Positions 7,056 to 64,000 of a stretch of DNA of 64,000 bases are shown here, piece by piece. Within the stretch, counting starts at the first letter, position 1; each line of letters starts with the position of its first letter. A program made the translations under genes and the position numbers. Under the pieces are notes generated by a model, which was not told the origin of the DNA, made no database searches, and saw only the letters and a program-made list of their open reading frames with translations. Location of the stretch: assembly GCF_949628265.1 (NCBI RefSeq), contig NC_088788.1, positions 8,556,001 to 8,620,000 of the forward strand, read 5' to 3'. The DNA is from Cloeon dipterum (lineage: Eukaryota; Arthropoda; Insecta; Ephemeroptera; Baetidae).

Positions 7056-7834
7056 ATGAGCTCGTTTCTTAGGCATGGCACCGAGAGTCACTTGGAGGAG
7101 CTGATTAGCAGCGAGAGTGATTACCAGTACGTCGAGCGACACATGCGGGAGACGATGAGCAACACACCACGAGACTACAAGTTGACCGGCTACACACTCA
7201 GAAACGTTTGAAAAAGTATTTATTGGTTTATTTTAATTTTTATTTATTGCCTGGTTTAGATCTACCGCATTAACAACGCGGAAATTTGGAATTGTGAACG
7301 AGAAAAAGACTTTTGTGAAGGAAATGAGACTTTTCCACGGCTCGCCCCACGCGGACACCATCGCCAGGGAAGGTTTTCGCAAAGTTAAGGCGAAAGGTGG
7401 TTACTTTGGCAAAGGTGAAAAAGTGTCTAATCGTTAAATGTCAAATAATAATTTCAAATAGGGATATACTTTGCTGAGGAGTCATCAAAGAGCAACTATT
7501 ACGCCCTGGGTGGCAGCGCCGATCCTTGTCCTGTCCATGAAACATACTTATGCGGCAAGTGCGAGCGCAAAATGCTACTCTGCATTGTGGCACTGGGCAA
7601 TCAGCTTGAGACAAAGGAGTATAATTCCGATCTAGCAGCATGTGTGGCAAAGAAGGGCGCCAAATATCACGCGCTTAAAGGGGAAAAAAGCAAACACATC
7701 AAAAATACCGAATACATTATCTACGACGAAAAACAGGTATTTGCACTGAGACGTTTTACCTTGATATCTAATTTATTTTGCTCCAGGCGTACCCGCAATT
7801 CCTCATTTTGTACCACGCAGTTTATTCCTCGTGA
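7056..7834 (+). pseudogene. tankyrase-like PARP, copy B, with frame-breaking deletion
   Basis: Exons align with copy A: 7056-7205, 7260-7414, 7462-7736 (275 nt, same as copy A) and 7787-7834 (48 nt, same as copy A). The triad and zinc motif survive (LFHGSP, GIYFAEESSKSNYY, TEYIIYD, CPVHETYLCGKC). Exon 2 has lost 38 nt just after its TGG codon compared with copy A. Frame-1 translation then hits a stop, while the frame holding LFHGSP is shifted. The first donor (AAC|GTTTGA) is also weak. The simplest reading is a recent pseudogene. The good conservation downstream leaves open a rescue by an unusual splice or a sequence error at the deletion. Confidence 0.68.
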
Positions 7835-9313
7835 CATACATGGAAGGGCCATTTATTTGGAAACTTCTTTTTGTTTAATATTTGTTGGTTATATTATGGG
7901 GAGTAAAATATCGTTTTATTGCTTCAGACAACTATATTTATTTTACTTATTCAACCTTTCAAAGGAATCGAATTTTAGTTGTCAATTTCTAAAGAAAATA
8001 TTTGCTCAGCTTCCGAATTTGGGTCAGTTTTTGCCGAGTAAACAAAAAGTGCAGTTTATTTTCATAGAGCGAAAGGGAGTGGCTGACAAATAAAAAGCAC
8101 CGCTTAAAGCCGATTGCGTAAACGTGTGTTTGTATATTTTATTTTAGAAACTATCGTGTCGAGTCTATTTTATAGCGAAGAAAGTTACCGTGTGTTGTAC
8201 TTGCTGGGAATTAAAGAGGTACATTTGCTGCGCTGCACAATTTCATTTTTAGTTCCGCTCGCAACCAGAGAGACGGGAAACAATGCCGTTTTTTTTATCT
8301 TTATTTTCTTTCGGGCCAGGTAAAATAAAAATAAGTTGGAGAGCGGAAGGTGTTATTTATTGGCCAACGCGCGCGTGATTGCGATTTTGCATTGATCCGC
8401 GGGTAGACACCAACATCGCCGCGTCTCTGATTGTGAGGCTGACTGAGAGCAGAGAGAGATAATGTAGTCCGCCCGCTGCTGCCACTTCGAATCCTGTTCC
8501 TTTGTTGTTCCTTTCACTGTGCGAAGGTCTTTGCTCCATATATTGTACATATATCCTTTCATTGCCTAGTCACGAATGCACCCGAAGCCGCACCGCTGCT
8601 TTTATCCAAAGTCTGCACTCACTGCTCTCGGAAGCGTTTTGTTCTTTTTCTAAGGCCGCGCCCGAATAAAAACACTTCTTACACATTACGAAATTCGTTG
8701 GAAATAATAATTTAGACGTTGCATAGTTTTGCTTATAATTAAAATTGCAGAAGGCACGTTTTTATTCTACCTGTAAAACGAGATAGCTAGAGGACACTAA
8801 ATTGGTTGGAGGGCAAACCTCTAAAAGGCCGGAACTGTTTTTGTTCAGGCAAATTTTGATTGACCGCAAAAGGATCGCGCCAAAACACTCGCAGAAAGAG
8901 AGTCTTGTCTAATTATCACTCTTGATCACATTTCCAAGGGCTCCGCACACAAAGACCAAATTTTAACACAAACCACACACTTGGCCCCCTTCCCAAAATT
9001 GGAGGTCCCAATGGCTTTTAATGACACGTTTTTTACTTATATAAATGCACGGAATGCCTATTTCTAGTTTTCTGAAAACCCTGATCTAAATCAACATTAA
9101 AAATCCTCAAAATAGAGGCGTTTGCAGTGCAACTCCAGTAGTGGGAGGGGGTCGAGTGTGTGGTTCGTCAAATTAAAATCCAATTCTCATCACTCCGGGT
9201 CTGAGTGTGCCACATTCCAACATTTTCCGTTCTCGTGAACTTTTCCACGCCTGGAAAAGCATCTGTCTTTCTACTAAACACTAAATTGTGGTGTTTTTTT
9301 TTAAAGGATGGCA
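7835..9313. other. intergenic, no gene recognised
   Basis: Between PARP copy B and the 3' end of the chitin-binding gene I see no exon with motif support. A possible AATAAA for copy B lies at 8089-8094. The longer open frames here have no family signature. Confidence 0.45.
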
Positions 9314-21929: not shown

Positions 21930-24101
21930 ATGCCTCCGATCAGGATACCAAGACCAGCGAGGATTTTTTATCGTCCTGTGGCGATCGATCTCAGCTGCAT
22001 CCCATCGAGTGCGGTGCCGATTCCAAGAGAACGGAACCATGAGTCAGTAAGCAGCGCCGAGATGCGAGAAGATCCGTTCGAAGGGCCGGATAAGGCCCGC
22101 AAGTGGCGCAACAACCACAATGTCAGCTGCAAGGAGACTGACAACGATCTATCTCTGCTGTTCAAAAAATTCTTGTACGAGCTCGAGTCCGGACGCAGCA
22201 TAATACCGGCCGCTGACCGCCTGCTGATTTTCTTGCGCGGAGCTGGCCGCCGCAAGCACCTCAAATGCGGCCTCCACCTGGTCACCCACGGTCTCGCACA
22301 TGTTCCAGACGAGCAGATACCCGTCCTCTTGCTCAGGCTCATCGCCGATAAGGGCACACCCGCCCGCCTCCGATGTCCTGAGGTTTCAGTTTATTTGATT
22401 GATACGTATATTTAATTAATTATCAACCATCAATCTTTGCGCCTGATGAGTTTGAACCTTGTTAAAACTAGAAGAGAGGAATTGAGGTATTCCCTGATTG
22501 GCTGTTTCCGGTGATAGTGCTGCCACCATTGGTCGGAATTTGACTAATCAAAGGGTTATCACTGTTTTCCCTGAACGATTCAAAGATTTTTATTTTTACA
22601 ATCCTGAATCAATTCAAACCTGTTTACCATGAAAATTAAAACCACCTTTCACACTGTTTCAGGACTTTGTGGTGAGTGTAATTGAGGCGATGGCCAACCA
22701 GGGCGTGAGTCTTCACTACCTGTACTACATGGGAGGCACCCTGCTGGATTCGTCAAGGAACCGCTACCTGATGTCTTCCGTGATGGCCAACGTGCGTCAG
22801 GTAGGCCGCCTGTTGCTGGAACGCGACACAACTGTCGAGCAACTGGTCAAGGCGCCGAATGGCACACAACGCTGCGCAGATGGAAGCGGCCACGCGCCGG
22901 TCAGCTTCTGCCTCTGGCATTTCCAGTTCTACACAGATCCTCCAAGGCATCTCCTCGAATGGGTATTGAATTTTTGCAACCCTATATTCACTTCCCCACC
23001 ACTAGGTTAAATCTTCTCTGAGTTTACCTCCCCAAATTGACCTTAACAGTTGTTGCCCTGAGTTTGAATTTTGGCGGTAGTAGTCCTGCAGGCCTTTCTC
23101 CTCTCTAGTTCATACTGAACTCCTTCCCCTTTGTGAATCCTCTGACTAAGTTGCAATTCACACCTTCTATAATTTCGTTTTCCTTTAGGGCTTGTTCCAT
23201 TGTCCTGACTCATTTTATAACTAGACAGTAGACACCTAAATTCACTTCCTTGCTAGCTTTTTCGATTATGATACCTTTTTGAGGGGAAGTGCTGCCAGGA
23301 ACTTCTACTGCGCAACAGACTAATTACAAGGAACTGCTTTTAACTGCAATCATGATTTTTTCTTATTTTTATTTAACCCTGAACTCCCTCCCCTCAACCA
23401 TCTTGTTGAGTTTGCTACCTTTTTGAGGGGAAGTGCTGCTTTAACGTCCCACTGCTCAACAGCAAATAATTATTTGAGGGAATTTCAACTTTTCTGCAGC
23501 ACTGGTTAAATCCACCCCTCCTCTATTTTTGCAATTTAATCCTGAAATACTTCCCCTCATCTAAAACCTTGATTTTCCCTCAATTTAACGTATTTTCTGC
23601 GCAAATCATCCAATTCAGGTGGAGCTCCTTACACTTCACGGAGCGAAATTCGTACTGCAGCAGGAGAACAACATCAACCTGGACAAGTCCGTACCGCATT
23701 ATTTGGTAGAGCAGCTGATAGTGCCGGAGACGCGGTGCGTGGGCACGGCGCTGAAGTTGCTGCACGTGTACCGCGAGCTGGGCGGTAAAATGTGGAGGAA
23801 GCAGTTGGTGCGACAGCAGCGGTTGGACGCCCACGATTATTTGCGCCTCGAGCGGCCCGAGATGAACAGAGAAGCCGAAGTTGTACACACCATGATGCAG
23901 GAGCCGCGCACGCTGATGAGCATGTGTCGCGGCACCATCCGCACCGCCATCGGCCGGCCCTTCTGGCGCGAGGCACCCAAACTCGGTCTGCCGGCCGTGC
24001 TTGCCCAGTACCTCACCCACTGGAACTACGACGACGAGTTCATGCGCGAGTACGGCGTCCGCATGACTGAGGTGCCTATCACCGCCGAAACAAATGAATG
24101 A
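21930..24101 (+). CDS. SOCS-box protein, probable Elongin BC-Cul5 substrate receptor
   Basis: Three coding exons join in phase 0: 21930-22382, 22663-22962 and 23619-24101, giving 411 aa. Residues about 348-383 form a SOCS box: a BC-box core TLMSMCRGTIR (Elongin B/C contact) and a Cul5-box-like GLPAVLAQYL. The rest is alpha-helical in character and rich in Leu, with ankyrin-like fragments (TLLDSS, LLTLHGA), but no repeat I can call with confidence. By family such proteins recruit substrates to a Cullin-5 ubiquitin ligase; the substrate cannot be guessed. The ATG is preceded by a TATA box, and AATAAA lies at 24428. It could be a divergent ankyrin-SOCS (ASB-like) protein. I do not recognise a specific orthologue. 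Confidence 0.72.
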
Positions 24102-32397: not shown

Positions 32398-35300
32398 TCA
32401 GACGAGACTGGCCGCTGAGCGCCGCACTACCGGTTTCTGCAGCTGCGCCTCCTGTCGACCAATCAGCGCCGCCACCCTCGACGTGTAAAAGCCGCCCAGC
32501 TGACTCGCACCACCACCGTTGACCACTTGGCCTGAAAATTAAATAAAAAATTAAAACTGGATAATGGTCATGATTTAATTAATTGGGAAGTTTTTCTGAT
32601 GTGGCCCAATTAACAAATTATTTAAATTTAAAGCGTAGTGAATGGCAGGAAAATTATTGAACTCAATATTCCCGCACAGACCTATAGCCGTTTAAAGAAA
32701 TTTCACAAAAACCGCATTCAAATAAAATTCTCAAGCCTAATGTTCATGATAATCAAAACGTCAGTTCTGTACCTGTACCGTCCACGATGTCCGGCGAGGG
32801 TCCTTTGGACAGTTTGCTGCTGTATCCAGACTCGTTTGGCGTCTCGCCGGTTGTATCGGTGGCCGGGGAGGCGCCGTTGCTGTGGTAAACGCCGGTGCGG
32901 CAGCGCATTCCGAGCGACGCGAGCCGCGCGTCCAGCATCTCGGCGCGTTCGTCCCAGTCGCGCCACTCGTGCGGCTCCTTGAACGCCACGTTCTCGTAGT
33001 CGTGGCCTTTCTTGCCTTCGGGCCCCATGCCCAGTCCTGCCGCCGTCTCCACCAATTCCTCGCTTGACTCGGAGCTCGCCCCGTCATCGTCTGCTTCTTC
33101 CTCCGCCACCGGCCGGAACTCCTAAAAAAAGCAAAACAGTTAAACTGCTGGTAAAAAATATGTCAAACCCACATTGAGCCCCCGTTCATTGAGTGGAGGT
33201 CTAGGATGAAACAAAACGCGGTAAAATGTAATTGGTTAAAGGGGAAATTTTACATCTCAAAGACATAAAGATGCTTCTTGGTTGCTTCCCATTCCCAACC
33301 ATGCCTCCAACCCAAGGAGGGGGCGCAGTGTGTTGAAGTTCAAATTTATAAATTTTTTAGACCTACCGACTGGGGCGGCCACCTGAGGTCCTGGTGTGAA
33401 CCATTAAGGTTGAGCTGGGGCCTCTGTTGCTGGTGATCGAGCAGGTCTTCGAGGCTCCTCGTGCGCGACATGTTGCGCTCAAGTCGCGGCCGGTTGGACG
33501 GGATGCGCTCGGAGGCTCTGGTGGCGCCACCGCGCACCAGCTCGCCGTGCAGCCAATGCTTGAGGTGGACGTGGCGTTCGTGGCACTCGAGCCGCTCGGC
33601 CGCCACGCACCTCGACAGTTCCTCCATCTTTCCATGCGTCTTCCGCTCCAGGCTGCTCACCTTCGCGTCCAGACGCGCATGCGCAGCGTCGATGTGCTCC
33701 TTCAGCTCCTGAAATTCGTTAATTTTAGTAAATTTCCTGGGGAATATGTTATTGATGGGGGTTGTGTCTCACCTGCTTATCTTTGTCCAGCCGCGCCTCC
33801 ATGTTTTTGAAGAAGGGTGCGCAGTAACACGTGTACCCCACACCGATCGGACCCTGAAATAATAATAATTTTTGTCAGTTTTACAATAAAATATATTTTA
33901 AGGTTTTTTAAATGTTTTCCCACCTTGCAAATATTGCCGGCCAGGTCGAGGAAGTACTGCTCGCCCCTTTTGAGCGGCTCCTCAGGCAGGGAGTCGAGGT
34001 TGGGCTGCGGAAAAGACGTCGAGTCAGGGTAGTAGTGGCAGCCATAGGGTGACCACTTTTTCGGGCTCTTCAGCTTGTCGAAGGTCACCTTGCTGCTCTT
34101 CGCCTGAATCAAATTAATTTATTTTAGTGTTTGTAACACATAAACACATGCCTGAAAATTTCAGGACGGTGAAACTTTTTTGAGAAGGAAAGAGTTTTTG
34201 TAGAGTGAGCAAATTCAAAATTGCACAATCGATCGGTTCATTTTTACCCTCGGAACATGTTGGGAGTCACTCCTGAGGTCAGAAAATACCTCAGATCAGG
34301 TAAGAAAACGAGCCCCAAGGGCATCCAACGAGTCAACTAGCATATCTCTCAATGAAAGTCTATTTTTTAATATTTTTATTTTAAAATTGACCTCTCTACC
34401 TTCTTTCTTTCCTTGTGTCTGGAGCTGGAGTCCTTGCTGCTGTTGCCGCTGCCGGCCTTTTCGCGCTTTTTGCCAGTCTCACTCCTGCGCTCAGGCTTTT
34501 TGCGGCTGCTGCTTCTGATTTTATCTGCCGGCGCCGAGCTCGATCCCAGCACCGCCGCAGGACTGTTCAGAATCTGCAGGATCTCGTTCAGGTCCTTGCG
34601 CGTCGCAATGTCCCGCGCCGTTTCTCCTTGCTAAACAACAAAGGTCCATGAAATTAAATTAAATATACAAGCGTTCCTTTCATGGGCATGCCAAGTCGTA
34701 AAATTAAAGTCAACTACACTCATTTTTGTTTGTACGGCAATATAAATCATGTATGTGTACCTTATTTTTGAGACTCTTGTCGCAGCCGGCCTCGAGCAGG
34801 ATCCTGGTCAGCTTCCTGCGCCCCATGGCGGCCGCGATGTGCAGCGCCGTGTCGCCATTCTGCAATAAGACCGATTCGCTCTCGTGAGACGCTGGACCGA
34901 ACAATCGAAAAATAAAACGCACCTTGTTCTGGTCGGACACTCGGCTCTTTGCGCTGATCAGGATGCGCGTCACCCCGGCATGCCCGTAACGAGCACTCGT
35001 GTGCAGTGGACTGTCTCCATACTGAAAACAATTAAATTTCTCGTTTAACAATCACATCTTCCTAGTGTTAGTGGATTTGTACTGAAATTTTTTAAAAGAT
35101 CATTCCTATATATATTAATTATAATACTTTTTAATTATTGAAAAAAGCTAAAAACAATTTCAGGTTGCCGCTTAAGTTTCTGAGAAAATTTGTTTTCACG
35201 CTAGTCAAGAGGTGAGCACTATAACTCCTGGTTATTCGCACACTTTTGGATAGAACAAGACGAAAGCAATCGATTTCAAGAGAAATAATCATTTACAAAA

Positions 35301-38300: not shown

Positions 38301-41300
38301 CGATATTTTGTTTTTTAAATATGTGGGGAACTGGATTTAAGAAAAAAATAACTAACCCCTGAAAATAACATGTCCCAAGGGCTGCTATTTTTGTCCAGCG
38401 CTTGACGCAATTCCAAAAATTCCAATGACACCCCATTTTCAGAAAGCTAAACTATTTTTTCCAACATCTAAGTCCTTTAAAGTGGAATGATACTGGGCAA
38501 CAATTGAAAATTATTTAAATTGTTGGATGCCTTAAACAATTGACCGATAAACAATTTGTTCAAAAATTTGCAATAGTAAAAAAATGACCTTCCTACAATA
38601 AAAATTCAAATTTTGCCAATTTTCTCCAAAATGTACAGAGCTCGAACATATTTTCTTGGCATATTCCGATTCCTCTCGTCGAGATCTGTCCAATTGTGTA
38701 TGCCACTTATTGGGGAAACTCTTGGTTTTGAAATTAAATCGGATTTCAAGTAAGGAGACAGCCATTGCCATTTGAAAATCACGGTAACTTTCCAGCCAAT
38801 TTTCTCAAAAAATTACAGCGCTCCTTAGGTCAATTTAGGCTTTAACGGCTTTAACTGAATCCTAAGCGATGAGTTTATGCATTGGCAACAAGCATTTTCC
38901 AGGCTTTTCCAGTATCATTCCTCTTTAAGACCTGCATTGTTACAAAAAAAACCCACTGATAATTGATTAATCCAATTATTATTCATGATATTCTGTTGCA
39001 TATAAATTGTCAATTTGAAATAAAAAGTGTCCGAGTGTAAAGCGGCCGCGGCGAGGAAGAAAGCACCAGGTTGACCACCCACTCGCGGGCAGAAAAAGCG
39101 ATCGAGCGCGCCGGGCAACAATAAATTTGGAGGCGCAGTATTCATCATGCCGGTTGTAATTATTGGCTATCGCAGGCTCGAACCTGTCCTCATAAATTCC
39201 GGCTTGACTCGCTCGTTCTTTTATTTCAAAAGCAATTATTGCTGCACCTCCGAAAATAGATTTCCTTGTAGGACAAGAGCAGGCAAACCATTTTATTTCT
39301 TTTCCGGAACAAATAAAAAACGAACGCGCTTTTCGCGCTCGCCCGGGGCCGATTTTATTGTTGCAGCGACGGTGTTAAAAAGTGTGATTTGTTTTGAACC
39401 TATTCGACGGGGAAAACAAAACGTACGCCGTAAAGTGAAAAAAAACAACAGTGGGCTGATAAGAATCTATTGTTATAGTTTCGCACGAACCGCGCGTCCG
39501 TAATTTATTCCGCGTAGAGTGACTGCCCGGAATCCGCATTTTTTCTCCACTCTCGGAGCACGATCGCGAGGCGATGTTGCCGCCGTACGATACGGGTATG
39601 CAGATAAGTCCGCAGACAACTTCAAAAGCTTCGATAAACAACAAGGAACAACAATTGCAAAGCTCTTGCTTCTTGTAAGCAGGAATATTCGATTTTCGAA
39701 GGGGAAAATATGTAAATTTAGGGCTTATAAAGAATTAAATTCGAGGTATTTTGCGGCGCAGGGATTGTCTTCTTTGTTGTCAGTCAAGATTTACAAGCTT
39801 TGTCTGTCCATTTTTTCGACGGCAAGTTTAAAAATTAGGAATAAAATTGTTAAAATAGTGAAGAATGTTATGTAATTAAAAAAATAAAACGGTTAATTGT
39901 TTTAGTGACATTTTCATCTGAGGAAAAATAAAAATGAGAGTAAAAATTAAAAAAAAAATAGTAGCGATAAACTGTCTAACTTATAGCGTTCAAATTGTAT
40001 CATTCTTCATCTGGCAATTCAGTGTAACGGACGTTTAATAATTCGCGGACCCAAGAATTTGGGGTAAGTGCCGTTAACGATAAAAATATTAATGTAATTG
40101 TAATTTATTGAATTGTATTACAGTCCTGTTGACGATTAAACACGTCTGTGTTAAAAAGAAGAATTATTATTTGGTCATCTCTTCCCCTGCGACCAAATTT
40201 GGTGACCCCGACGTGAATTCTTGGGTCCGCGAATTATTAAACGTCCGTTACACTGAATTGCCAGATGAAGAATGATACAATTTGAATATTCACGTTAACA
40301 ATTACAAAACAACAATGACGATTGGCAATTCTTACACGGCAACAATGAAATAATACAGAACAAATACAACAATCAAATCAACAATACGCTATAAAATCTA
40401 TACCAAACATAACAACTATCAAATATCATGAAATTTTTGAAATATTTTGAAATCGTCAGGCTAACGCGACTTCAATCCGGAACTAAAATTGTCCAAAAGA
40501 GGCAAAACCTTTTTTAAGTGGGTTATTAGCGTCTTTGATGAGTAAAAAATACCAAATATTAAACGTTTTCCTTTTTTAATTTTCAAATTTCTAACATTTC
40601 TTGTTTGTAGATTTAAATTTAGAGAGCAGATATGTGTGCAGACAGAGAAATAAACAATGAGAGAATGAGAGATTCAAGTTCAAGATTTATTTGTATTTCC
40701 CATCAGTTGGATGCGGCCGGACTTTCACTAATATGCATGACAATGCGCGTGAGCGCTGCATGCGACGCGGGTGATGTTCCACGGAAACGCCGCCGTCGCG
40801 CACTATCTTCATAAATATTCCCAAACAATTAAGGCGATAAATAACGGCAGCGGCGAGGAGAGCTGAACGCTGGAACCCTGCCTGCGTGCTTTTTGTGCCC
40901 GCGATTCGGGACGCTCGTCAAAAATGCGTCAGTTATATTCTTCTTTTTTTTTGTACGAATCGAACGTGAGCTTCCACGCCGAGACAAGTGCCGACGCAGC
41001 AGGCGAACACATTCTTTGTGTCGAATAACTGTTCACGAGTGCATTAATACATATTTACCAGCACATTAGAAACGCAAACAAGAAGAAGTAGTGCTCTCCA
41101 GTGGAAAGAACAAAAAATTTAAAACGTATGGATGAGGAAGAAATTTCTTTTAAGTGGATTGAGGCCACTTGACAGAATAATATTCAAAATTACTGAAATG
41201 ATTCTTGAATAAATTAAAAAAATAAAAAAAATAAAGGTTCTTTAACGGCCAGCTGAAATTTTCAGTCGAATTTTGTGCGAAAATAGTAGCTGAGTGGGGA

Positions 41301-44300
41301 AAAACTGAAAATTTTGGCAGTTTTTGATGCTACTTTGAACTGGTGAATTTTAATCAGGCATATCACAGACCCCTTTCGAAAATCTGCAATTTTTGAAAAA
41401 TTAAAATAAAACTTTCAAGACTCAAAAGTACCATTTTTTATCTTCTCAATATGTATTAAATTTAAAAAGTCTATTTACATCGGTGCCAAGAGACAGTGTT
41501 TTGAAAATCCTGAAAGAAAAGTTAATGCAAGATCACAAGCTAATGGAGAGAACATTGATTCCGATTGATACGTTATGTGAAATGGTAGATTTTAGCATGA
41601 AGTCAACATACTTTATTTTCGAAGGAAAATTTTACAAGCAGAAGAAAGGTCTGGCGATGGGTTCGTCACTGTCCCCGGTTCTCGCAGAAGTTTTTATGCA
41701 GGATTTTGAGAGAAAATGCTTGGAGAAATTCCGAAAAAAACCGAAAGTGATGTGGAGGTATGTGGATGACTATTTGGTAATTTATGACCAGGCATGTTTT
41801 CCGATAGCCGAGTTCTTGGATAGCTGTAATAGTGTACATCCTGACATAACTCTTACATTGGAATTGGAGAAGGACAAGTCAATCGCCTTTTTGGATATGT
41901 TACTAGTACACGAACAAGGCAAAGTCAAACTGACGGTGTATAGGAAGCCAGGAAGTGAAAATAGTTTCTTGCAATATGACTCAAATCATAGTTGCGAAAC
42001 AAAAATGGCGGTGGCACTGAACATGTTTAGACGGGCACTTGGCTATTGCAGCGACAGTTTGAGTTTGAACCAGGAGATAAACACGATTTTTGGTTTGTTG
42101 GAGAAGAACGGATATCCGAAACAATTCATCAAGAAGGCATACCGGAAGTGGATGAGAAAAAGAGAGGACAAGGAGGAGCAGGTGCATTCAACGTCGGTGG
42201 TCGTTCCATTTGTGAGGGGGTTTTCTGAAAAATTTAAAAACTTCAGCAAGAAAATCGCAAATGTGAGGGTAGTTTTCTCAAGTGGACTTTCCCTAAGAGA
42301 CCGGTTGATGCGCGTGAAACCTCCATCGGAACCAGTACTTAAAAACTGTATTTATTTAGTGCCATGTTTAGATTGCACGTCAGTATATATTGGCCAAACA
42401 AAGAGACAAGTGCAGTACAGATTAGATGAGCATAGGAGAGCCGTAGGAAAAAGCACTGGAAGCTCGACGAACAATGGTCTCCAGTTAGCGCGGCATGCAC
42501 AGAAAAAAGGACATACGTTTGATTGGAAGAATGTGGAAATTTTGAAGCAAGAAACAAATTTGTGGAAGAGGGTAGTTTTGGAGGCGGTTGCAATGGAATG
42601 CTCAGAAAACGTTATTAGTAACCCAAGCCACCTGCTTTGTGATGTGTGGAAAAATATTTTACGCGCTGAAAGGGGAAAATTTAGCTCACGGAACAAAAAG
42701 GTTCCCTACCACCTGTGAGATGTGCGTGTTATTTAACAAAGGGGTGGCTTAGAATTTGTTACATTTGGTCTTTGGAGCTTGCCTCAAGTGCCTCATGAAT
42801 AGGTGGGTGTTTTTTTAAAAATTGTATGGAATTTATATGATTTTAGATGTGACATTATTGTATTGTTTGTTATTTGATTGTAATTGTAACTCATGATTAG
42901 GACGTACTTGGTGACGTCGAAACTGGTCGAGAAATAAAGAAGACGAATTTCTCTTTAATTTGACAACGAGGATGAAGCCTGGTTTTAATTATATTCAACA
43001 TGAAAACAACCTCGAGTGGTCGCACTTTTCAAATAATGTATTAAATTGTCATAATTTTTCTCATCTCGAAAGCAATTAATTTCCTTTGATAAAAAAGAGG
43101 GCGTAACCAGTAAAATTCGAAAAACTGGATTTGGGGCACTTTTGGTCTGAAGGACATGGAAAAAACAGGTCGATTAGGGTCAACTTTACATGAAATTTCA
43201 TTTTTTTTAAATAAAAAAATCACCAACATTCCACTTTAATTCATAAATAATTCTCATATGCGTTACAATTTTTATTTTAACGCGTGGAATTATGGTTTTA
43301 ACTTATTTTCGTTTCCAAATTGGTTGAAACAGACGATCAAATTGTGTAAAACAGATGTGAAATTGGATTTCAAAGTTGTTTATGTCATTATTAAAATTGC
43401 CTAATTTAACAATATATTTAGTGATCATCCAAACAAAATAAACTCCAATCCGAGTGCTGCATTAAATTTATAGCTTTGCGTGGAATAAATCAGTTTTGTG
43501 TTTTTTGAAAGCCGTATAAAGGTGCACAAAGGCTTTTCCCCAACCAGGCCGGGCCCGGAGTGAAATAAATCAGCAGGAAAAGCTGAATTAGGAAAACGGA
43601 GCCGGGCTGCGTGTTTTATGGGCGCAGAGACATAAATAAGAATGAGGAGCATCGCTCATCTGCCCACACGCAGCGTCTATTCTCTCTCTTTATCGTGCGA
43701 TGTCGTCGCCGGGATCAATTTGGGGGCCGCCAAGAGAGAAAATAAGAGACGCCGGTCATCCTGTTCGTTTGTTTGGACAATGCACCGCCTCGTGACTCGC
43801 TCCAATCGCGCGTTTCTTACGCAAACCTCTTGACAGTGACAGTGGCGTCAAATATAATATAAAGTTCTTCATTCCACTCCACAGAGGTCATGTAATAAAA
43901 ATTTACGAGTGTTTTGATACTTGAAAAGGGTCAGCTCGGAATTATTTTAAAAGAGGAAAATTATTTCGTAATGGAGCGTGCGAGATCACAGCTCACGTGT
44001 TTCCCTGCCCGCGCAATTGAGCAATTTCACCGATCAAAATGAATTTCTCAAGAAATGTGGATGAAAATAATCTACATCAGAAGACAGGAGGAATTAAATG
44101 GGAGTAAGGATATAATTTTTTATAAAATGGCAGGTTAAAAATTATAGCTACGAATTTGTTTAGATTAATAATCATTGTTCCTGAATTTAACTGATTTATA
44201 TAGCACGTCGAATTTATCGCAAATATATATTTTGCACGAGTTGAAATAAGCCCAAGATATGGAGTTTTAAGCAAAATGTATACAATTCATACTGACCCAA

Positions 44301-53300: not shown

Positions 53301-55610
53301 ACCACACACATCCTACTAGAATTTATAATTAATTCAAATTACAAAAAGGAATTGTGACGTTTTCCCACCAGGAGTCAAGAGTTAATTGCCAGTGTTGGTG
53401 GAATGCAAACAAGCCGAGATTTGGGAGAAAAAACCGCTAGGATGAGTTTTAATTGCCGGTGTTCAATGCTGCGGTTGCATAATCTTCGGAGAGATCGTGT
53501 TCGCCTTTCGCCTGCCTCTCTGCTTCTTTATTAACATGTCAACGCGCGGCCGGCGGTGCGGGGACAAAAAATTTCGCAGCGCACGGCCGTAAAGAAGCGG
53601 CAGGAGCAGCACACCGGGCATAAAAGTGTCGCCTCGCCTCGCAATATCTCAATTACACCAGGCGCAAATTAATAACGACCAGTTCCCAGCCGAACTCTGA
53701 ACTTTTTACGGCCGCAAAATCACTAAGCGAATCTACGTTTATGCCAACGCGATTGAAAAAGACACGTAGACAGACGAAATTTATATATAACCTTGCCAAA
53801 TAAATTACAATTCATATTGATTTATGGTTTTAAGTGGAAATTGAAAGAGACACTCACCCCATCCGGCCTGTTGACGTCGGCACCGCTGAGAAGGAGACTA
53901 GCGACCACGTTTGCGTGCCCTGCCGAACACGCCAGGTGCATTGCCGACCGACCAGCCTATGGAAAAAGACGGAAATTAATTTTTTACGCAGACGAAAAAT
54001 GTTTTGAAACACAATATAATTTTCAAAACCCCCTGAGGGTAAAAATTTATACCACAACACACAAAATACACAGAAATTAAAGTTAAGAGTTTAAATTTTT
54101 CAAGAAAAATATTGTTTTGTTCTTTAAATTAAATTTTAAAGAGGATTGATATTGCAAAACCCGGCATGCATAAAATAAACTCTAAGGATTCAAAATTGGC
54201 CTGGGTAGCTCTTTAAATTTTTGAGAAAAGTGGCTGCAAAGTTATTAAGCTTGAAAAATGTTTCCCTACTTGAAAATAAATGTAACTTTATTTCACAACA
54301 AAGAATTTCCCTAAAAATTATCATAAACCGTTGGATAGATCTTGACAAGAGGAATTGAATTTCGGAGAAAATGGGCACAAATTTAATTTCAACTCCTCTT
54401 TTGATTGTTGCTCATTGCTAACAATTTGAACAACTGCTTAGTGTAGCCAACAATTCTAATACTTTTTAATAGTAGTTAAAGAGGAATGATACTGCAAAAG
54501 CCTGGAAAATGCTTGTTGCCAATGTATAAACTCATCCCTTAGGATTCAGTTAAAGCCTAAATTGACCTAAGGAGCTCTGTAATTTCTTGAGAAAATTGGC
54601 TGGAAAGTTACCGTGCTTTTCAAATGGTTAATGGCTGTCTCCTTACTTGAAATCTGATTTAATTTCAAAACCAAGAGTTTCCCCAATAAGTTGGACAGAT
54701 CTCGACAAGAGGAATCGAAATACGCCAAGAAAATATGTTCAAGCACTGTAAAGTTTGGAGAAAATTGGCAAAATTAGAATTTTTACGGTTAGGAAGGTCC
54801 TTTTTTATTATTGAAAATTGTTAAACTAATTGTTTATCGATCAACTGTTTATGGCATCCAACAATTCAGAAAATTTTCAATTGTTGCCCTGTATAATTCC
54901 ACTTTAATACTCAGCATCAATCTAAAGAAGGTATCCTCCATCCTTGCATCAATCTACCTCGAAGGTTTCTCAATAAGTTTGTTCATTGTATTATCCAACC
55001 ATTAAAAAAATTAATAATTTCCTCCTGCCGTTTGTTTACAAGTGGCAGCAAATTGACAATCGAAAAATGATTTGCCGAATCGGCTTGGAGACAGATAAAA
55101 AAATTGGAGAGGCCATGCGATTTTTCACAGCAGCGGGATGGATGGTCTGGAGATTGGAGGAATGTTCGGCCGTGGCGCACGGTGAATAAGTAATTAGCGA
55201 TGGTAGTTTGGCTATTCAACAATGCGACACGCCGGGCCACGCGGCACAATGCCTATTAATGAAGCCGCCGCCGACACTCACACAACACCCGGAATGCTAC
55301 AAAATGGCTGAATCACTTTTATTAAGTGATAATAACAAATACACGCGGCGGCGGCGCTTCTTTCACACGATTGATACTCAAAAGAGCGTCATTTACACCG
55401 TCCTCTTGAAATTAAAACAACGGAGCAGGCTATTTTCCTCCCATCTAATTGAATTTTGCTCACCTCATCGGGCACATCGGGCTTGACGCCTTCGCCGACG
55501 AGTCGGACGATGGTGTCCGAGTCGCCCCGCACGGCCGCCTGCCGAATTTGCTCGAGCAGCTCGGCTTCGGCGGCCGACGGAGCGGCGTTTTTGCTCCGGC
55601 CGAGGGGCAT
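32398..55610 (-). CDS. dgo: Diego/Diversin (ANKRD6) planar cell polarity ankyrin protein
   Basis: Twelve coding exons on the minus strand, all in phase: 55464-55610, 53858-53956, 44994-45095, 36837-37037, 34923-35021, 34761-34859, 34400-34630, 33924-34103, 33773-33853, 33367-33708, 32773-33121 and 32398-32531, giving 687 aa. Residues about 15-275 are a block of about eight ankyrin repeats, with exons 2, 3, 5 and 6 each encoding one repeat. GNTALHEASWKGFS and LHLSCQNGHNQSCRELLLA match vertebrate ANKRD6 closely. Next come a basic Ser/Lys/Arg-rich stretch, a conserved patch (GVGYTCYCAPFFKNMEARL) and a coiled coil (about 405-465, DAKVSSLERKTHGKMEELSR) that also aligns with ANKRD6. The C-terminus is acidic, then disordered. 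Diego binds Dishevelled, Prickle and Flamingo in the polarity complex at cell cortices. Introns 1-3 are large and hold transposons. Exon 11 has two usable donors 6 nt apart. Confidence 0.92.
35510..35558 (+). repeat. left arm of a 49-bp inverted repeat around diego exon 4
   Basis: It matches the reverse complement of 37474-37522 with a single mismatch; the core is GGCTCACCGGATTTTCGAAA. The two arms lie 1.9 kb apart and bracket exon 4 of diego. Confidence 0.8.
35613..35730 (+). repeat. intronic direct repeat, first copy
   Basis: The stretch contains GAGAAAATAATCAGCTCT and then ACATGCAAACAGTTG about 75 nt on. The same two blocks recur in the same order and orientation at about 36385-36490 in the same diego intron. 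The blocks between are diverged, so this is an old repeat. Confidence 0.6.
36385..36490 (+). repeat. intronic direct repeat, second copy
   Basis: It is the partner of 35613-35730, sharing GAGAAAATAATCAGCTCT, GAATTTAAAA and ACATGCAAACAGTTG. It lies just downstream (in gene orientation) of diego exon 4. Confidence 0.6.
37474..37522 (-). repeat. right arm of the 49-bp inverted repeat around diego exon 4
   Basis: It is the reverse-complement partner of 35510-35558 with one mismatch. With the other arm it could mark the two ends of an old insertion or be two oppositely oriented copies of a short dispersed repeat. Confidence 0.8.
38477..38928 (+). mobile_element. MITE with TTAA ends, copy in diego intron 3
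   Basis: TTAA is at both borders, and the ends read TTAAAGTGGAATGATACTGG and ATCATTCCTCTTTAA. It is collinear with the 13106 copy across its full length, with small indels and a short duplication of GGCTTTAAC near 38840. Confidence 0.78.
39989..40286. repeat. perfect 71-bp inverted repeat with 156-nt spacer
   Basis: The arms 39989-40059 and 40216-40286 are exact reverse complements (core CAGTGTAACGGACGTTTAAT). The spacer next to the right arm contains CCAAATTTGGTGACCCCGAC, which resembles the LTR end plus primer-binding site of Ty3/gypsy-type retroelements, so the arms may derive from the leader of such an element. It lies in diego intron 3. Confidence 0.75.
41467..42960 (+). mobile_element. 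5'-truncated Penelope-like retroelement (RT plus GIY-YIG)
   Basis: One open frame runs to a stop at 42716-42718. It begins abruptly in reverse transcriptase motif A at SLFTSVPRDS, with no start codon or upstream RT motifs, so the 5' end is missing. Then follow the fingers/palm motif KKGLAMGSSLSPVLAEVFM, the catalytic YVDD (WRYVDDYLVIY), and a linker. The C-terminal GIY-YIG nuclease has CIYLVPCLDC, VYIGQTKRQVQYRLDEHRR, paired histidines and a late Glu in VVLEAVAME. RT followed by GIY-YIG is the diagnostic order of Penelope-like elements. The remaining frame has no stop or frameshift, so insertion is probably young. It lies antisense to diego within intron 3. The 3' limit near 42960 is an estimate. 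Confidence 0.88.
42961..44993. other. diego intron 3, right part: no other feature seen
   Basis: This is AT-rich sequence without any exon or recognisable repeat, between the Penelope-like element and diego exon 3. Confidence 0.4.
45096..53857. other. diego intron 2 (8.8 kb): no nested gene recognised
   Basis: I found no nested coding exon with motif support. There are simple repeats (CTTT run near 50474, TG run near 50207) and islands of higher GC near 47300-47600, 48600 and 53500-53650 that could hold regulatory DNA or an alternative first exon of diego. Nothing decisive is visible. Confidence 0.4.
54136..54469 (-). mobile_element. MITE of the TTAA family, diverged, reverse orientation
   Basis: It starts at TTAAAGAGGATTGATATTGC and ends at a TTAA near 54466. 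Shared internal blocks include GACAAGAGGAATTGAATTTC. It abuts the better-preserved copy at 54476. Confidence 0.6.
54476..54907 (-). mobile_element. MITE with TTAA ends, reverse orientation, diego intron 1
   Basis: It is bounded by TTAA on each side, starts TTAAAGAGGAATGATACTGC and ends ATAATTCCACTTTAA. It is the reverse complement of the 13106 and 38477 copies along its whole length. Two family members side by side suggest insertion into or beside an earlier copy. Confidence 0.75.
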
Positions 55611-56039
55611 ATCGTCCTCACTTCACGGCGCAGTCACTGCATCCCACCTGAAACAAAACAATCCGAAAATTTAATTCATACTAATTTTTGTCAAATTAAA
55701 AAATATATATATTAAAATTAATGACAAAAAGGTTAATCAAACGGTTGCGTAGAATCTATTTGTTAATAATGCCTGATTTAAAAATAGTTTATTATTGTCT
55801 GACAAATTCCATTAGTACGATGAAAGGTGGTATTGTGTAAAGGAATTAGTACACATTTCATTTCCGACAAAGTATTAGCAAATATAAGTAATTATTGTGA
55901 CCAATCAAAAAAACTCCCTCTTATACACGACAGTCAGTTTAGGAAAATCCTTCGAAAGGCGTGTTTCTCGTTTTCCGTCTATTAGACATGATTTAGGTGT
56001 TTTTCTATAACGATTTCATTTGGATTCAACGGATTCAAC
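55611..56039. promoter_or_regulatory. divergent upstream region of diego and caspase-like gene A
   Basis: This 429-bp gap separates two start codons that face away from each other. From about 55738 it matches the region upstream of gene B (from about 61437), for example GCGTAGAATCTATTTGTTAA and AGGCGTGTTTCTCG. So the promoter of the caspase-like gene was duplicated with it. No TATA box is evident. Confidence 0.5.
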
Positions 56040-59000
56040 ATGTCTCGCTCTGGAGAGCCATTCGAAGGTATAATGATTGCTTCTATTTAAACTAAGTGAG
56101 TACTAAATTTGACCCACGATAGACGGAGAGAAGGAGAGCATTGGTTACTGGGACGGTGACCCATCGGAAACCGTGGGGTTTGTATTTTAAAGTATTATTA
56201 CCCAACCATTTTTTGTTTTATCAGCATTGCATGAAGAATCAAGTCAAAATTTATTCAAAGAATAAACTGAAGTCTAGAAATGACTCCATTGTTTTAATTT
56301 TTAAATAAATAAATAGATGTAATAGGTTATTTATGGTTTACTTCCACTACATTATATTCATGTTTTTTTTTAAATATGTTTTTCCGGAAAATTAGCATCA
56401 AATTTTGGCAGTAACTCATACCTGAAAATCACGATTGGGTCATTTCCAGAAAAATTAAGTGCGAAATATCATTTTCAGAGTAACGTGTGCATTAATTGTC
56501 CACTACTCCTATTCCGGAAACACGGAGAAAAGCCGTGAGGTAAGCGACAGAAAGGACGTAGAAAATTTGAAACAAAATCTGGGAAGATACGCAAGAGTCT
56601 TCGAGACCTCGGAGCATAAAAAAGACGTGCTCAACTTGATAAGCAGTGAACACAGGCTGAGAAGAACTTTTAATCTGCGAAGTATGTTTAATTATTTGAC
56701 AGCTTTTGGTAAATACATGTATGTAATTTGCTTTGCTTGAAGCTGATGAAGAGCTGGAACTGTTCTTTTTGTTCATCCTGACTCATGGTAACAAAGATGG
56801 CTACTTGGGAACTCATTTTCAAGATGAATCTTTCTACGTAAATGAAGTCTACGAAAGGCTAAATAAAAATCGAATTCTTGAAAAAACTCTAAAAATTAGC
56901 ATCATATCGGTATAGTACACGTTTTTAAGTTTTGTGCTTAACATAAAGGTAATTAACGCAATTTAGGCTTGTCGTGGCGATATGATAGATGACATCGTTC
57001 CCTCGCATGGGAATGAGAAGGAAGTGGAATTCAAAAATGTTGTTCATAGCAAAACGATTGAGAAGGAAAGTGATGCAAACCTCAACGCAGTAAGAGTGAC
57101 GGCAGAGCCAAACAGAGAGAATTTCATCACCATGTTTGCCTCCGTCGAAGGTACCAAATTAATTATTTTCTTTAGATGTAATTAAATTAATTGTAAATAC
57201 AAAGGAACATGTTCATACGACAGAAAAAAAGGGACACTCATCTGCGAATCCTTCTGCGCGTGCCTCGATTTTTTGGAGAAAGACGTCAGTATTGTTGAGT
57301 TTCTGACAAGAGTCATGTTCTGCATTCACCGAGGAATAAACAGATATTATGGATTCGGTGAGACGCCGGAAGTGAAGATTTTCAAACACAGAGAATTAAC
57401 CATATCAAAAAAGTTTGCAGGATCAGATAACTCGTAAGATCTTTAATTATATTGTTAATTTTTCCATTTAAAAAAAAAATTATCAGCGAGTACCAGGGTC
57501 TAGGAAATGTAAACTACGACTGGATTTCTGATAAGAAGGAGCTTATTTTGAAGCGGAAAGCACATTTCTGCATTTCATACCAGAGCAAGGATGGGCCCAA
57601 CGTTTCAATCCTGCAAGATTTGCTATGGAGCAATTTTGGTCTGGAAGTGAAGCAACACGATTGTTTAAACACGCTCGTTCATTCTAGTTAGTATAAATTT
57701 TAAATTTTTATACGATTATTCACTTAAATAAAAATCAGTTTCAGCAAAAAGCGAGGAAGAAGATGGCTGTGTCTTCATATTCATTGTGGCTCCACTAAAA
57801 ACTGACGAGAAAACCGGCGAAATTTTCGCCAAAATCGAAGATGGATATATTCCGATTAAACGAGTACTCTACCAATCCATTGGGCCAAACACTGGAAACT
57901 GGATCGGAAAGCCAAAACTGTTTGTGTTTCTCAATTCTTCTGACGCATCGACTTCAAGGGACTCTTATTGTACTGTGTGCCAGGTAAATCAACAAAGCCA
58001 AATATTTAAAATTAAAGTCTAAAAAAATGCACTATTTTTTTCAAAGGTTTACAAAGAGAGTGATTTTACTAGAAGTGGTACCATCCACGTTGGCCTTCTA
58101 ACCCTGATTCTGCCACAACAAAGTAAGAAAGCAATAAATCCTTCAAGCGTTTTGTGTTAATTGATTGGGTTTTAGATGCTGTAAAGTTTTTCAACGGTGA
58201 ACTAGAAGAATACACGAAATCGGGAAAAATGAGAACTTCAACATTTCAGCAATTCTTCACTGACGTTCAACGCAAAGCAATGGACACGTTCAAAATCAAG
58301 CCGATGGTTATTTCAACCCTTGAAATGATGCTCGGCATGTCTTTCCCATGCCAAACTGTCGCCAAAAACTTCATTCTAACGGGCGTGCACAACAACGTTC
58401 GAGTTTCGCTGTCTGCACTCAGCAAAATGTACATCGGGATGCTGAGAGGAAGTGCAAGAGCGGCCACTTCTCGACCAGAAATCATGGCTATAGAGTGCCT
58501 GTTGGCGGATTCAGATCAAGCGCACGTAGGACGAGTCGAGAAGTGCGTCTTGGAAATGAAGTGTGAGTACACGGTGTTCATCATTTCCGCCAACGCCGGC
58601 TGGGGAGCGTCTGCGTTGACTCAAATTCTGACCTCGAGGGTCAGCGAAGAAGAGCGAAATATCACTTATGTCAACTTGAGAAACGACAGCGAATTTTACA
58701 AGGCGTTGAACGATTGCAATGAAGATTACAAAGCACTCTTCAAGCAATATTGGCAGTTGAAAGGGCAGCCGCGCCCTTTTGGAAGGAACGAGCTCATCGT
58801 TCTTGACAACCTGGATGGTTTGCGCAGCGTAGAACTGGAAGACGTGCTCAAGATGGTGCGCCAGATGGCAAAAGACAGGGTTTCTCTGATGATATCCATG
58901 TGGCCTAAAAGCGAGGAAATTGTGGAGAAGAGTCTCAAGGGAATTTGCCCAGTGACCATTGTGCACATCAACCGCGCCTCCAGAGAAAATCAGATCGCCT

Positions 59001-59548
59001 TGTTGGAGAGCAGGATCGGTGGCTGCGTGGAGAGAGACGCGATCGAGAACATCTTGGAGGTAATTGAAAGGGCAGGCGCTGACGACCTCACCGAGAAAAT
59101 CGGCTCTATGGAGTACTTGGCCACTTTCCCCAACCTGACAAGACAAGAATCTGTCAACATTTACGCGTTGAGTAAGCACGTGTTCAACCTGACAGTTGAA
59201 ATGGTTCTGCATAGAGTAATTGGCTTCCCTCCGTTATCAGGAAAAAACAAAAAGTATCGCAAGGAACACACTAAAAAGCTCTCGATTCTCTCCCAATCTT
59301 ACTTTTGCGACACCCCAGTGAAAAAAGACTTTGAATATGAAACGAATCTGGAGCATTATGGCATTGTACGCGTATTGGAGTCACGAGTAGATGTTTTGAG
59401 CAAAACTTTGGCGGCCTACCTGTGCGTGAGTGAGGGCTTGATTTCGGCCAAACAGATTAGCAAGATGCCCGATGAGAAACGAAAAATTCTCGAGAAGATG
59501 TGGCGTGAAAAAGAACAACTGAATGAAGAATCCAATTGTGAAAATTAG
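56040..59548 (+). CDS. caspase / pseudocaspase / STAND-like NTPase protein, gene A
   Basis: Ten coding exons, all in phase: 56040-56067, 56123-56177, 56479-56681, 56743-56909, 56967-57150, 57205-57433, 57487-57686, 57745-57983, 58047-58122 and 58176-59548, giving 917 aa. Residues about 28-285 form a caspase fold (VTCALIVHYSY) with catalytic His110 (FILTHGNKDG) and Cys153 (SACRGD). The p10-like part has NFITMFASVEG and GTLICESFC. Residues about 310-560 look like a second caspase fold (KRKAHFCISYQ, GKPKLFVFLN). There the HG is replaced by AP (371-372) and the Cys position by Ser421 (NSSDAS), so it should be inactive. Residues about 585-800 resemble a NACHT/STAND NTPase: NAGWGASALTQIL (600 onward) is a P-loop lacking its lysine, and LIVLDNLDGL (from 667) fits Walker B. 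The C-terminus is Lys/Glu-rich. There is no CARD, DED or signal peptide. A tandem copy follows. Confidence 0.78.
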
Positions 59549-61722: not shown

Positions 61723-64000
61723 ATGTCTCACTTTAGAGTGCTATACGAAGGTATAGTAATTCCAACAATTTGCACTTCAAGTACTAAATTTGACCCACGA
61801 CAGACGGAGAGAAGGAGAGCATTGGTTACTGGGACGGCGACCCATCGAAAGCCGTGGGGTTCGTATTTTAAAGTATTATTACCCAACCATTTTTTGTTTT
61901 ATCAGCATTGAATTGAGAATCAAGTCAAAATTTATTTAACGAGTAAACTGAAGTTTAGAAATGATTTAATTTTAAATAAATAGGTTCATCATATTGTGAT
62001 TTTTGGTTTATTTCCACTACAGCCGAGATATTCATGGTCGAACTTTTTCCAAAATATGTTTTTCCGGAAAATTAGCATCAAAATTTATCTGCGGACACAT
62101 ATTTCATACCTTAACTCATACCTGAAAATCACGATTAGGTCATTTCAATATCATTTTTAGAGTGACGTGTGCATTGATTGTCCACTACTCATATTCCAAA
62201 AACACGGAGAAAAGCCGTGAGGAATACGACAGAAAGGACGTAAAAAATTTGAAACAATGTCTGGGAAGATATGCAAGAGTCTTCGAGACCTCGGAGCATA
62301 AAAGAGACGTGCTCAACTTGATAAGCAGTGAACACAGACTTAGAAGAACTTTTAATCTGCGAGGTATGTTTAATTATTTAACAGCTTTTGGTTCATACAT
62401 GTATGTAATTGGCTCTGCTTGAAGCTGATGAAGAGCCGGAACTGTTCTTTTTGTTCATAATGACTCATGGTAAAGAAGGTGGCCGCTTGTACACTCATTT
62501 TGAGCATGAATATTTCACCGTAAATGATGTCTACAGACGGCTTAATAACAATCGAATTCTTGAAAAAGCTCTGAAAATTATCATCATATCGGTATAGTAC
62601 ACGTTTTTAAGTTTGTAGCATAATTGAAAGGTAATTAACGCAATTTAGGCTTGTCGTGGAGATATAAGAGATGACATCGTTCACTGGATTGGGAATGCGA
62701 ACGAGGTTGAATTAAAAAATGACGTTCCAAGCAAAACGATTGGGAAGGGAAGAGATACGAACCTCAACGCAGTAAGAGTGACGGCAGAGCCAAACAAAGA
62801 TAATTTCATCACCATGTTTGCCTCCGTCGAAGGTACCAAATTAATTATTTTCTGTAGATTTAATTAAATTAATTGCAAATACGTAGAAACATGTTCATAC
62901 AGCAGCAAAGAAGGGACATCTATCTGCGAATCCTTCTGCAAGTGCCTCAATGTTTTGGAGAAAGACGTCAGTATTGTTGAGTTTCTGACAAGAGTCATGT
63001 TCTACATTGACCGAGCAATAAACACATGTTATGGATACGGTGAGACGCCGGAAGTGAAGATTTTCAAACACAGAGAATTAACTATATCAAAAAAGTTTGC
63101 AGGATCAGATAAGTCGTAAGATCTTTAAATTAATTTGTTAATTTTGCCATTTAAAAAAATTATCAGCGTGCAACTGGCTCTAAGAAATGTAAACTACGAC
63201 TGGATTTCTGAAAGGCACAAGCTTATTCTGAAGCGGAAAGCACATTTCTGCATTTCATACCAGAGCAAGGACGGGCCCAACGTTTCAATCCTGCAAGATT
63301 TGCTATGGAGCAATTTTGGTCTGGAAGTTAAGCAACACGATTGTTTAATGACGCTCGCTCATTCTAGTTAGTACATTTTTTATATTTTTGTGCGATTATT
63401 TACTCATATAAAAATCAGTTTCAGCCAAAAGCGAGGAAGAAGATGGATGTGTCTTCATATTCATTGTGGCTCCACTAAAAACTGACGAGAAGACCGGCGA
63501 AATTTTCACCAAAATCGAAGATGGATATATTCCGATTAAACGAGTTCTCTACCAATCCATTGGGCCAAACACTGGAAACTGGATCGGAAAGCCAAAACTG
63601 TTTGTGTTTCTCAATTCTTCTGACGCATCGACCTCAAGGGACTCTTATTATGATGTGTGCCAGGTAATTGAACAAAGCCAAATATTTAAAATTAAAGTCT
63701 AAAAAATGCACTATTTTTTCAAAGGTTTACAAAGAGAGTGATTTCACTAGAAGTGGTACCATTCACGCTGGCCTACTAACCCTGATTCTGCCACAACAAA
63801 GTAAGAAAGCAATAAATTTTCAAGCGTTTTGTGTTAATTGATTGGGTTTTAGATGCTGTAAAATTTTTCAACGGTGAACTAGAAGAATACACAAAATCGG
63901 GAAAAATGAGAACTTCAACATTTCAGCAATTCTTTACTGACGTTCAACGCAAAGCAATGAACACGTTCGAAATAAAGCCGATGATTGTTTCAACTCTTGA
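61723..64000 (+). CDS. caspase / pseudocaspase protein, gene B (cut by the window end)
   Basis: Coding exons: 61723-61750, 61804-61858, 62161-62363, 62425-62591, 62649-62832, 62887-63115, 63167-63366, 63425-63663, 63725-63800 and 63853 to beyond 64000. The nine complete exons have exactly the lengths of gene A exons 1-9 (28, 55, 203, 167, 184, 229, 200, 239, 76), and no frameshift or stop is present. The catalytic His (FIMTHGKEGG) and Cys (SACRGD) are kept. In the p10-like loop gene A has CSYDRKKG while gene B has CSYSSKEG, losing the arginine. The linker after the active cysteine is the most diverged part. The pseudocaspase exons are nearly identical to gene A, including NSSDAS. The NTPase part would continue to the right. 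It is the product of a tandem duplication with a period near 5.7 kb. Confidence 0.78.

Follow-up and report, generated by a model that had tools for sequence, protein, structure and literature searches.

In vertebrates, caspase-8 and cFLIP are two chains with death effector domains, and Aedes CASPS18/CASPS19 provide an insect case of an inactive caspase that modulates a caspase. Bacterial and fungal STAND proteins with caspase-like or other effector domains tie an effector protease to a signaling NTPase; we know of no caspase-pseudocaspase tandem among them. Here, we describe a gene on the plus strand at positions 56040 to 59548 of a 64,000-nucleotide stretch (the window; C3:8556001-8620000 in a genome of 190.1 Mb and 10 contigs) in which a caspase, a pseudocaspase, and a NACHT-type region are fused in one chain. 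In the available text of its description, the coral caspase-X (Acropora) has an active and an inactive caspase domain in one chain, modeled as an internal pair like caspase-8/cFLIP (PMC4715348). Four caspase-X genes are given for A. millepora, and the authors consider that they are maybe restricted to corals (PMC4715348). A construct limited to the active domain is reported to kill HeLa cells more effectively than full-length caspase-X does, which offers a precedent for an inactive domain that damps an active one in the same chain (PMC4715348). In the accessible portion of PMC8195603, bacterial caspase domains are fused to TRADD-N and other domains, not in the combination caspase-pseudocaspase-NACHT.

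A caspase, a pseudocaspase, and a NACHT-type region in one chain

Joining exons by splice sites and phase gave ten exons that encode 917 residues in a frame without an inner stop. All nine introns are GT..AG, and the reading frame is continuous across all ten exons. Spliced alignment returned the identical ten exons; its query was the window protein itself, which makes this a consistency check and not an independent discovery. The features of the gene and its tandem copy, in window positions, are as follows.

56040-56067, +, exon 1, with the start codon at 56040 (splice sites, phase)
56123-56177, +, exon 2 (splice sites, phase)
56479-56681, +, exon 3, in which the caspase domain begins (splice sites, phase; Pfam C14 on residues 32-251)
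56743-56909, +, exon 4, with the catalytic His110 at 56784-56786 (splice sites; family alignment)
56967-57150, +, exon 5, with the catalytic Cys153 at 56970-56972 within SACRG (splice sites; family alignment)
57205-57433, +, exon 6, small-subunit part of the caspase (splice sites; PDB comparison)
57487-57686, +, exon 7, in which the pseudocaspase begins (splice sites, phase)
57745-57983, +, exon 8, pseudocaspase core with Pro (57792-57794), Ser (57936-57938), and W-I-G-K-P-K (alignment, profile)
58047-58122, +, exon 9 (splice sites, phase)
58176-59548, +, exon 10, a single open frame from the small-subunit part of the pseudocaspase through the NACHT-type region to the stop
56479-57420, +, caspase domain, residues about 28-284, introns inside (Pfam, PDB)
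57518-58429, +, pseudocaspase domain, residues about 300-545, introns inside (profile searches)
58562-59029, +, degenerate NACHT-type NTPase, residues about 590-745, with AGWGAS, LDNLD, and ISMWP (alignment, profile)
59030-59545, +, C-terminal part behind the NTPase core (family comparison)
61723-64000, +, tandem second copy of the gene, extending beyond the window end (87% amino-acid identity; spliced alignment)

The tandem copy, which begins at about 61.7 kb, has the same exon layout as the window gene. Its exon 1 was identified by eye and the other nine exons were modeled; these nine contain no stop. Modeled coding sequence extends beyond the window as far as C3:8621219, and a stop follows a few residues on. 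By eye, the DNA upstream of both copies (55.8-56.04 kb and 61.4-61.72 kb) looks duplicated. Because these upstream stretches look alike, the promoter region was probably copied along in the tandem duplication.

We found that the gene belongs to a large family. Searching the genome with the window protein, we obtained 72 matching stretches, the majority at C3 8.34-8.63 Mb and the rest on C1, on C2, and elsewhere on C3. Spliced alignment recovered 17 members in a first round and 7 more from C1 and C2; the GT-AG introns of these relatives were imposed by the aligner and are not evidence for their models. Pfam NACHT matched 101 times in the genome and C14 matched 36 times, with nine of the C14 matches 1.0 to 1.7 kb upstream of a NACHT match on the same strand. 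We sampled every eighth of the 101 NACHT rows, starting from the first, which gave 13 loci, none modeled earlier. The order caspase, pseudocaspase, NACHT was present in 12 of the 13, the domain-2 part of one (L068) aligning poorly. Extrapolated from this sample of 13, some 90 of the 101 NACHT loci would belong to the family. The exception, L060 (C1:9154945-9160400; rank 1), gave the highest-ranking Pfam NACHT match of the genome (E 4e-14 as protein); no good alignment to the family model was obtained anywhere in the 5.4 kb read, and L060 is a different NACHT gene.

In all, the caspase-pseudocaspase-NACHT order was found in 36 modeled genes of the genome, and because it recurs in this number of genes, chance is excluded as its source. 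Of these 36 members, 5 have one exon that crosses from the caspase end into the pseudocaspase start, and 25 have one that crosses from the pseudocaspase end into Walker A (24 if member K, which has two in-frame stops, is left out). Because single exons span the domain junctions, caspase, pseudocaspase, and NACHT are fused in one chain, and the junction exons are direct DNA evidence of it.

A tree of the 36 members, rooted at its midpoint only, split with 100/100 support into 16 short members, which include the window pair, and 20 others, made up of Q and of 19 members that are ankyrin type by kinship. Ankyrin repeats passed the cut-off in 7 of the 11 other-branch frames scanned (L049, L050, L051, L053, L054, L057, and L059). 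In the first five of these, they occur in the same genes as a modeled caspase and pseudocaspase; L057, L058, and L059 were read only from the last pseudocaspase exon onward. As for the other four frames, L062 and L063 run into the end of the retrieved sequence too early, L058 stops without ankyrin repeats, and the match in Q is below the cut-off. The remaining ankyrin-branch members are so named by kinship, most of them read only about 100 residues past FAEF. Among the 16 short members, 15 have a last modeled frame that stops soon after the place of TFAEFLAAQ in the other branch, and the window protein ends some 45 residues past that position; short members may have additional exons beyond an unseen intron. 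Member K (L012; C3:8630402-8634685) stops earlier. Its two in-frame stops lie near the position of an intron in its sister J and reflect either an unrecognized intron or an early pseudogene.

The first domain is a caspase. Pfam Peptidase_C14 matched residues 32-251 with an E value of 2e-12 and 47.8 bits (cut-off, 21.4), and the best PDB relative of the domain is caspase-8 (E 8e-4). The catalytic dyad is retained as His110-Gly (THG) and Cys153-Arg-Gly (ACRG). As aligned over the family, His is kept in 35 of 36 members, Cys in 35, and both in 34. The caspase S1 pocket for a P1 Asp is formed by two Arg and the Gln of QACRG. In the window copies, the Gln of this canonical motif is replaced by Ser (Ser-Ala-Cys-Arg-Gly), and the ankyrin-branch counterpart is mostly Phe-Gly-Pro-Cys-Arg-Gly. 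Judged by eye and not from a structure, an Arg lies in or beside the first Asp-pocket place in 32 of the 36 members, window copies included, and at the second S1-pocket place in 23, both window copies lacking it. Domain 1 of the window gene can be called active only as far as its catalytic dyad, and Asp-specific protease activity is putative. Two ankyrin-branch members by kinship, L070 and L071 on C4, are natural double-dead versions.

To characterize the second domain, we built a profile from 13 family members. Against PDB (up to E 10), all 13 of its matches were caspases, the best being 6pdq (E 0.0013). We also ran it on 987 open frames, of which 294 came from eight C14 loci of the genome and 693 from window bases 1-53000. 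Five frames scored below E 0.05; these, and indeed the top nine, were all forward-strand frames of C14 loci; the tenth rank was a window frame with an E value of 2.2. A control NACHT profile on the same 987 frames gave nothing below E 1.8. The hallmark of the domain, W-[IV]-G-K-P-K-[IL]..F, corresponds to the strand that ends in QACRG in caspases. Here the strand ends in F-L-N-S-S-D, which places Ser (57936-57938) at the position of the catalytic Cys, and in an ungapped reading Pro (57792-57794) stands at the position of His in the window copies. Neither catalytic residue is present in domain 2 of any of the 36 members as aligned. Window residues 300-545 are thus assigned by profile and alignment to the caspase fold without catalytic residues, that is, to the pseudocaspases. 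A viral or bacterial origin of the pseudocaspase was considered in one scan of prokaryote contigs and one of viral contigs; a short pattern occurred in 15 prokaryote and 10 viral stretches, none of which was a confirmed relative, and we rejected this origin.

Most of what the initial annotation had proposed for this part of the gene holds. Its ten-exon model was exact in coordinates, free of inner stops, and 917 residues long. The single chain it had suggested is borne out by the junction-spanning exons of relatives and the continuous frame of the window gene. It had also predicted a second caspase-like fold with Cys replaced by Ser and His lost; the profile searches place domain 2 inside the caspases, both in the 13 PDB matches and in the 987-frame test, with Ser and Pro at the expected places. 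Its active-site-competent caspase stands for the fold, His, and Cys; in the putative substrate pocket of both window copies, the Gln of QACRG is Ser and the second S1 Arg is off its place.

The NACHT-type region and selection since duplication

The third part of the chain was identified through its relatives. The Pfam NACHT cut-off was passed by 13 of the 16 other members scanned, namely, E and M of the short branch, Q, and all ten further frames of the other branch (L049, L050, L051, L053, L054, L057, L058, L059, L062, and L063). Both window copies fall below it, and the NTPase region of the tandem copy has no significant Pfam match. Among the best 60 of 126 PDB matches to an NTPase profile, NAIP ranked first (E 1.7e-4), and plant ADR2 (0.012) and NLRC4 (0.031) were also found. 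The window gene has the Walker B sequence IVLDNLD with its acidic motif present; members that pass Pfam NACHT share this Walker B and have their motifs in the same order. By homology to these family members, window residues 590-917 are classed as NACHT-type. An AlphaFold2 model of exon 10 alone from a single sequence had a mean predicted local distance difference test score of 39.7 and was discarded.

The window copies have lost the residues on which nucleotide switching would depend. Walker A retains GK[ST] in 34 of the 36 modeled members, and AGWGAS, with the lysine changed to alanine, occurs only in the two window copies. Their sensor reads ISMWP instead of ITTRP, with Trp at the place of Arg; this Arg is also lost in D and H, and the Pro behind it is lost in O and L052. 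Since the window NTPase lacks both the Walker A lysine and the sensor arginine, a role as an NTP-driven oligomerizer cannot be assumed for it. The initial annotation had called this a NACHT/STAND-like region that would serve as an oligomerization or sensing module. The first part is upheld by homology to members that pass Pfam NACHT, with the reservation that the window copy itself is below the cut-off. The oligomerizing role cannot be assumed for the window copy; the lysine is kept in 34 members.

We compared the window copies part by part through the ratio of nonsynonymous to synonymous change (dN/dS). Synonymous divergence is similar across domains (0.10-0.14). The caspase has a dN/dS of 0.88 (bootstrap, 0.55-1.54), compared with 0.26 (0.13-0.52) in the pseudocaspase, 0.14 (0.03-0.37) in NACHT, and 0.54 (0.29-1.13) in the C terminus; the value of 1.38 for the 44 codons that link pseudocaspase and NACHT comes from only 1.5 synonymous changes. 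The caspase carries a higher density of nonsynonymous changes than NACHT (Fisher P = 2e-9) or the pseudocaspase (P = 1e-6), whereas synonymous changes in the caspase are no different from those in NACHT (P = 0.54) or the pseudocaspase (P = 1.0). Thus, between the window copies the caspase evolves almost freely, and the pseudocaspase and NACHT have been constrained since the duplication. The caspase also changes fastest in two other close pairs of the short branch, Bc-C and C-D, and is exceeded only by the C-terminal part in J-K and Bc-D. Among pairs from the ankyrin branch, most caspase dN/dS values are 0.2-0.6, with less difference from one part to another.

Possible roles of the window gene

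On balance, we think it probable that this is an NLR-like family with a built-in caspase and pseudocaspase in which the window gene is switch-dead, most likely a regulator or decoy of its paralogues. In full-length members, the ankyrin tail would sense a ligand or danger. NACHT would then open, oligomerize, and gather chains, and the N-terminal caspase would be activated by proximity, forming a heterodimer with the adjoining pseudocaspase of its own or a neighboring chain as caspase-8 does with cFLIP-L. Such a member would be receptor, platform, and protease in a single chain. The window protein may co-assemble with these paralogues through its pseudocaspase and NACHT region, its caspase having little or altered activity. 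We read it as a regulator or decoy because the window copies, lacking the ankyrin tail and the lysine, keep NACHT and the pseudocaspase under selection while the caspase drifts. For the wider proposal, we see the chances as evenly balanced: the genome may hold roughly a hundred single-chain inflammasome-like receptors that combine an ankyrin sensor, a NACHT oligomerizer, a caspase, and a pseudocaspase, in a lineage that, if arthropod, is said to lack bona fide NLRs, with members like the window pair as switch-dead regulators of the rest.

Several observations weigh against these proposals. The window NTPase by itself has no significant Pfam match (NPHP3_N at E 0.13-0.17, beside other chance matches), and three short members are below the NACHT cut-off (N with 26.3 against 26.7, A with 19.1, and I without a NACHT match). 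Among the same best 60 of 126 PDB matches, the NTPase profile mixes P-loop classes, with ClpC second (E 1.8e-4) and various P-loop ATPases further down. A caspase catalytic residue is missing in 2 of the 36 members, His in L070 and Cys in L071. Single domain-2 sequences of 13 members gave no match to Pfam C14; even so, a place for domain 2 outside the caspases is ruled out by the profile searches. When the domain 1 profile of the family was compared with its domain 2 profile by hhalign, no match resulted (probability, 0.2%). Because of this negative result, we take the two domains to be old, distinct caspase lineages, and the idea that domain 2 is a recent copy of domain 1 is unsupported. The role as regulator or decoy rests on a single pair of paralogues, both with the catalytic dyad kept, and the one-chain architecture and the putative function are read from DNA.

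The main rival is that the window protein is an active protease, matured by its built-in pseudocaspase without NTP switching, whose fast change reflects adapting substrate specificity, for example, in an arms race. This would account for the retention of the full dyad, His and Cys, by both window copies and by 34 of 36 members overall, and the upper bootstrap bound of the caspase dN/dS (1.54) leaves room for positive selection at some sites. However, 13 of the 36 members, both window copies included, lack the second S1-pocket Arg at its place, Ser replaces the Gln of QACRG in the window copies, and protease activity is itself putative; we regard this explanation as possible but unlikely. We find it improbable that the window pair is a decaying relic heading for pseudogenes. 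Loss of the ankyrin tail, the Walker A lysine, and the sensor arginine would fit such decay, as would the relaxed caspase domain and the two in-frame stops in the model of another short member, K. Yet the open reading frame of the first copy is intact, the second has no stop in nine modeled exons, and purifying selection is clear on the pseudocaspase (0.26) and NACHT (0.14) since the duplication. Finally, a caspase gene followed by a separate pseudocaspase-NACHT gene would be compatible with a gene model read from DNA, but this is very hard to reconcile with frame and phase that are continuous over ten exons, a domain order conserved in 36 modeled genes, and a single exon that spans the caspase end and the pseudocaspase start in 5 of 36 members, and we set it aside because domain junctions lie inside single exons.

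Neighboring features and comparison with known systems

The window contains other features. On the plus strand, two similar PARP catalytic-domain exons lie at 6101-6586 and 7452-8090 (Pfam PARP, E 2e-6 and 2e-7) and by eye represent a duplicated tankyrase-like gene or gene pair. A SOCS-box exon is found at 23589-24098 (+; Pfam E 2e-7), and an ankyrin repeat exon is found by Pfam at 34713-35051 (-). A 437-residue reverse transcriptase open reading frame at 41405-42715 (+; Pfam RVT_1, E 1e-9) is followed in frame by a GIY-YIG-like motif, and by eye the element is Penelope-like. Inverted repeats at 38477-38693 and 54691-54907 (217 nucleotides, 86% complementary, 16 kb apart) are probably two copies of a repeat element. 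Beside the window gene, the frames 53857-54090 (-) and 55392-55622 (-) look ankyrin-like by eye and have no Pfam match. Rfam and tRNA scans across the window gave no match. A search for the telomere repeat TTAGG in five copies also had no match, an uninformative result.

The pairing of a catalytic caspase with a pseudocaspase without catalytic residues resembles that of caspase-8 with cFLIP-L, as presented in the available text of PMC4715348. It differs in that the window gene encodes one chain with no death-fold domain by Pfam; a search of the 917 residues up to E 10 found neither tandem death effector domains nor a death-fold domain, only C14 and a sub-threshold MTRES1_C. Judging from that same text, caspase-X has the order inactive, then active, whereas the window family has active, then inactive, and the term NACHT does not occur there, whereas the window family has an NTPase-type region (PMC4715348).

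Many family members resemble animal NLRs in having NACHT, a Walker B of the LDGFDE type, and a TTRP/GTRP sensor, and the family as a whole does so in the repeat-rich C terminus of its ankyrin branch and in being large and clustered. Unlike NLRs, which combine NACHT with leucine-rich repeats, it has ankyrin repeats or nothing in their place (Pfam found no leucine-rich repeats in the window gene), and a protease with a pseudoprotease replaces the death-fold adaptor domain. Bacterial and fungal STAND fusions, unlike the window family, are not animal genes, and Aedes CASPS18/CASPS19 are separate genes without NACHT, whereas the window family has one chain with NACHT. The comparisons with caspase-8/cFLIP and the inflammasome that the initial annotation had drawn appear reasonable as analogies.

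In the literature surveyed, of which coverage was partial and which left public proteomes outside the search, we found no description of an arthropod caspase-NACHT family, or of the present combination of domains, in titles and the openings of abstracts. The combination may well exist, unnamed, in the predicted proteomes of other animals. Caspase-pseudocaspase chains (in corals, in reverse order and without NACHT) and NACHT receptors with repeats are already known separately. If our reading is true, the family would be a new class of immune or cell-death receptor and, if the species is an arthropod, would fill the absence of bona fide NLRs by another route. The window pair would be a testable case of a NACHT region under selection after loss of its nucleotide-binding lysine, and the family would offer a natural setting in which to test, within one chain, how a caspase is tuned by a pseudocaspase. 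Several proteins usually come together to form NLR inflammasomes or caspase-8/cFLIP; this family joins a caspase, a pseudocaspase, and a NACHT region in one chain.

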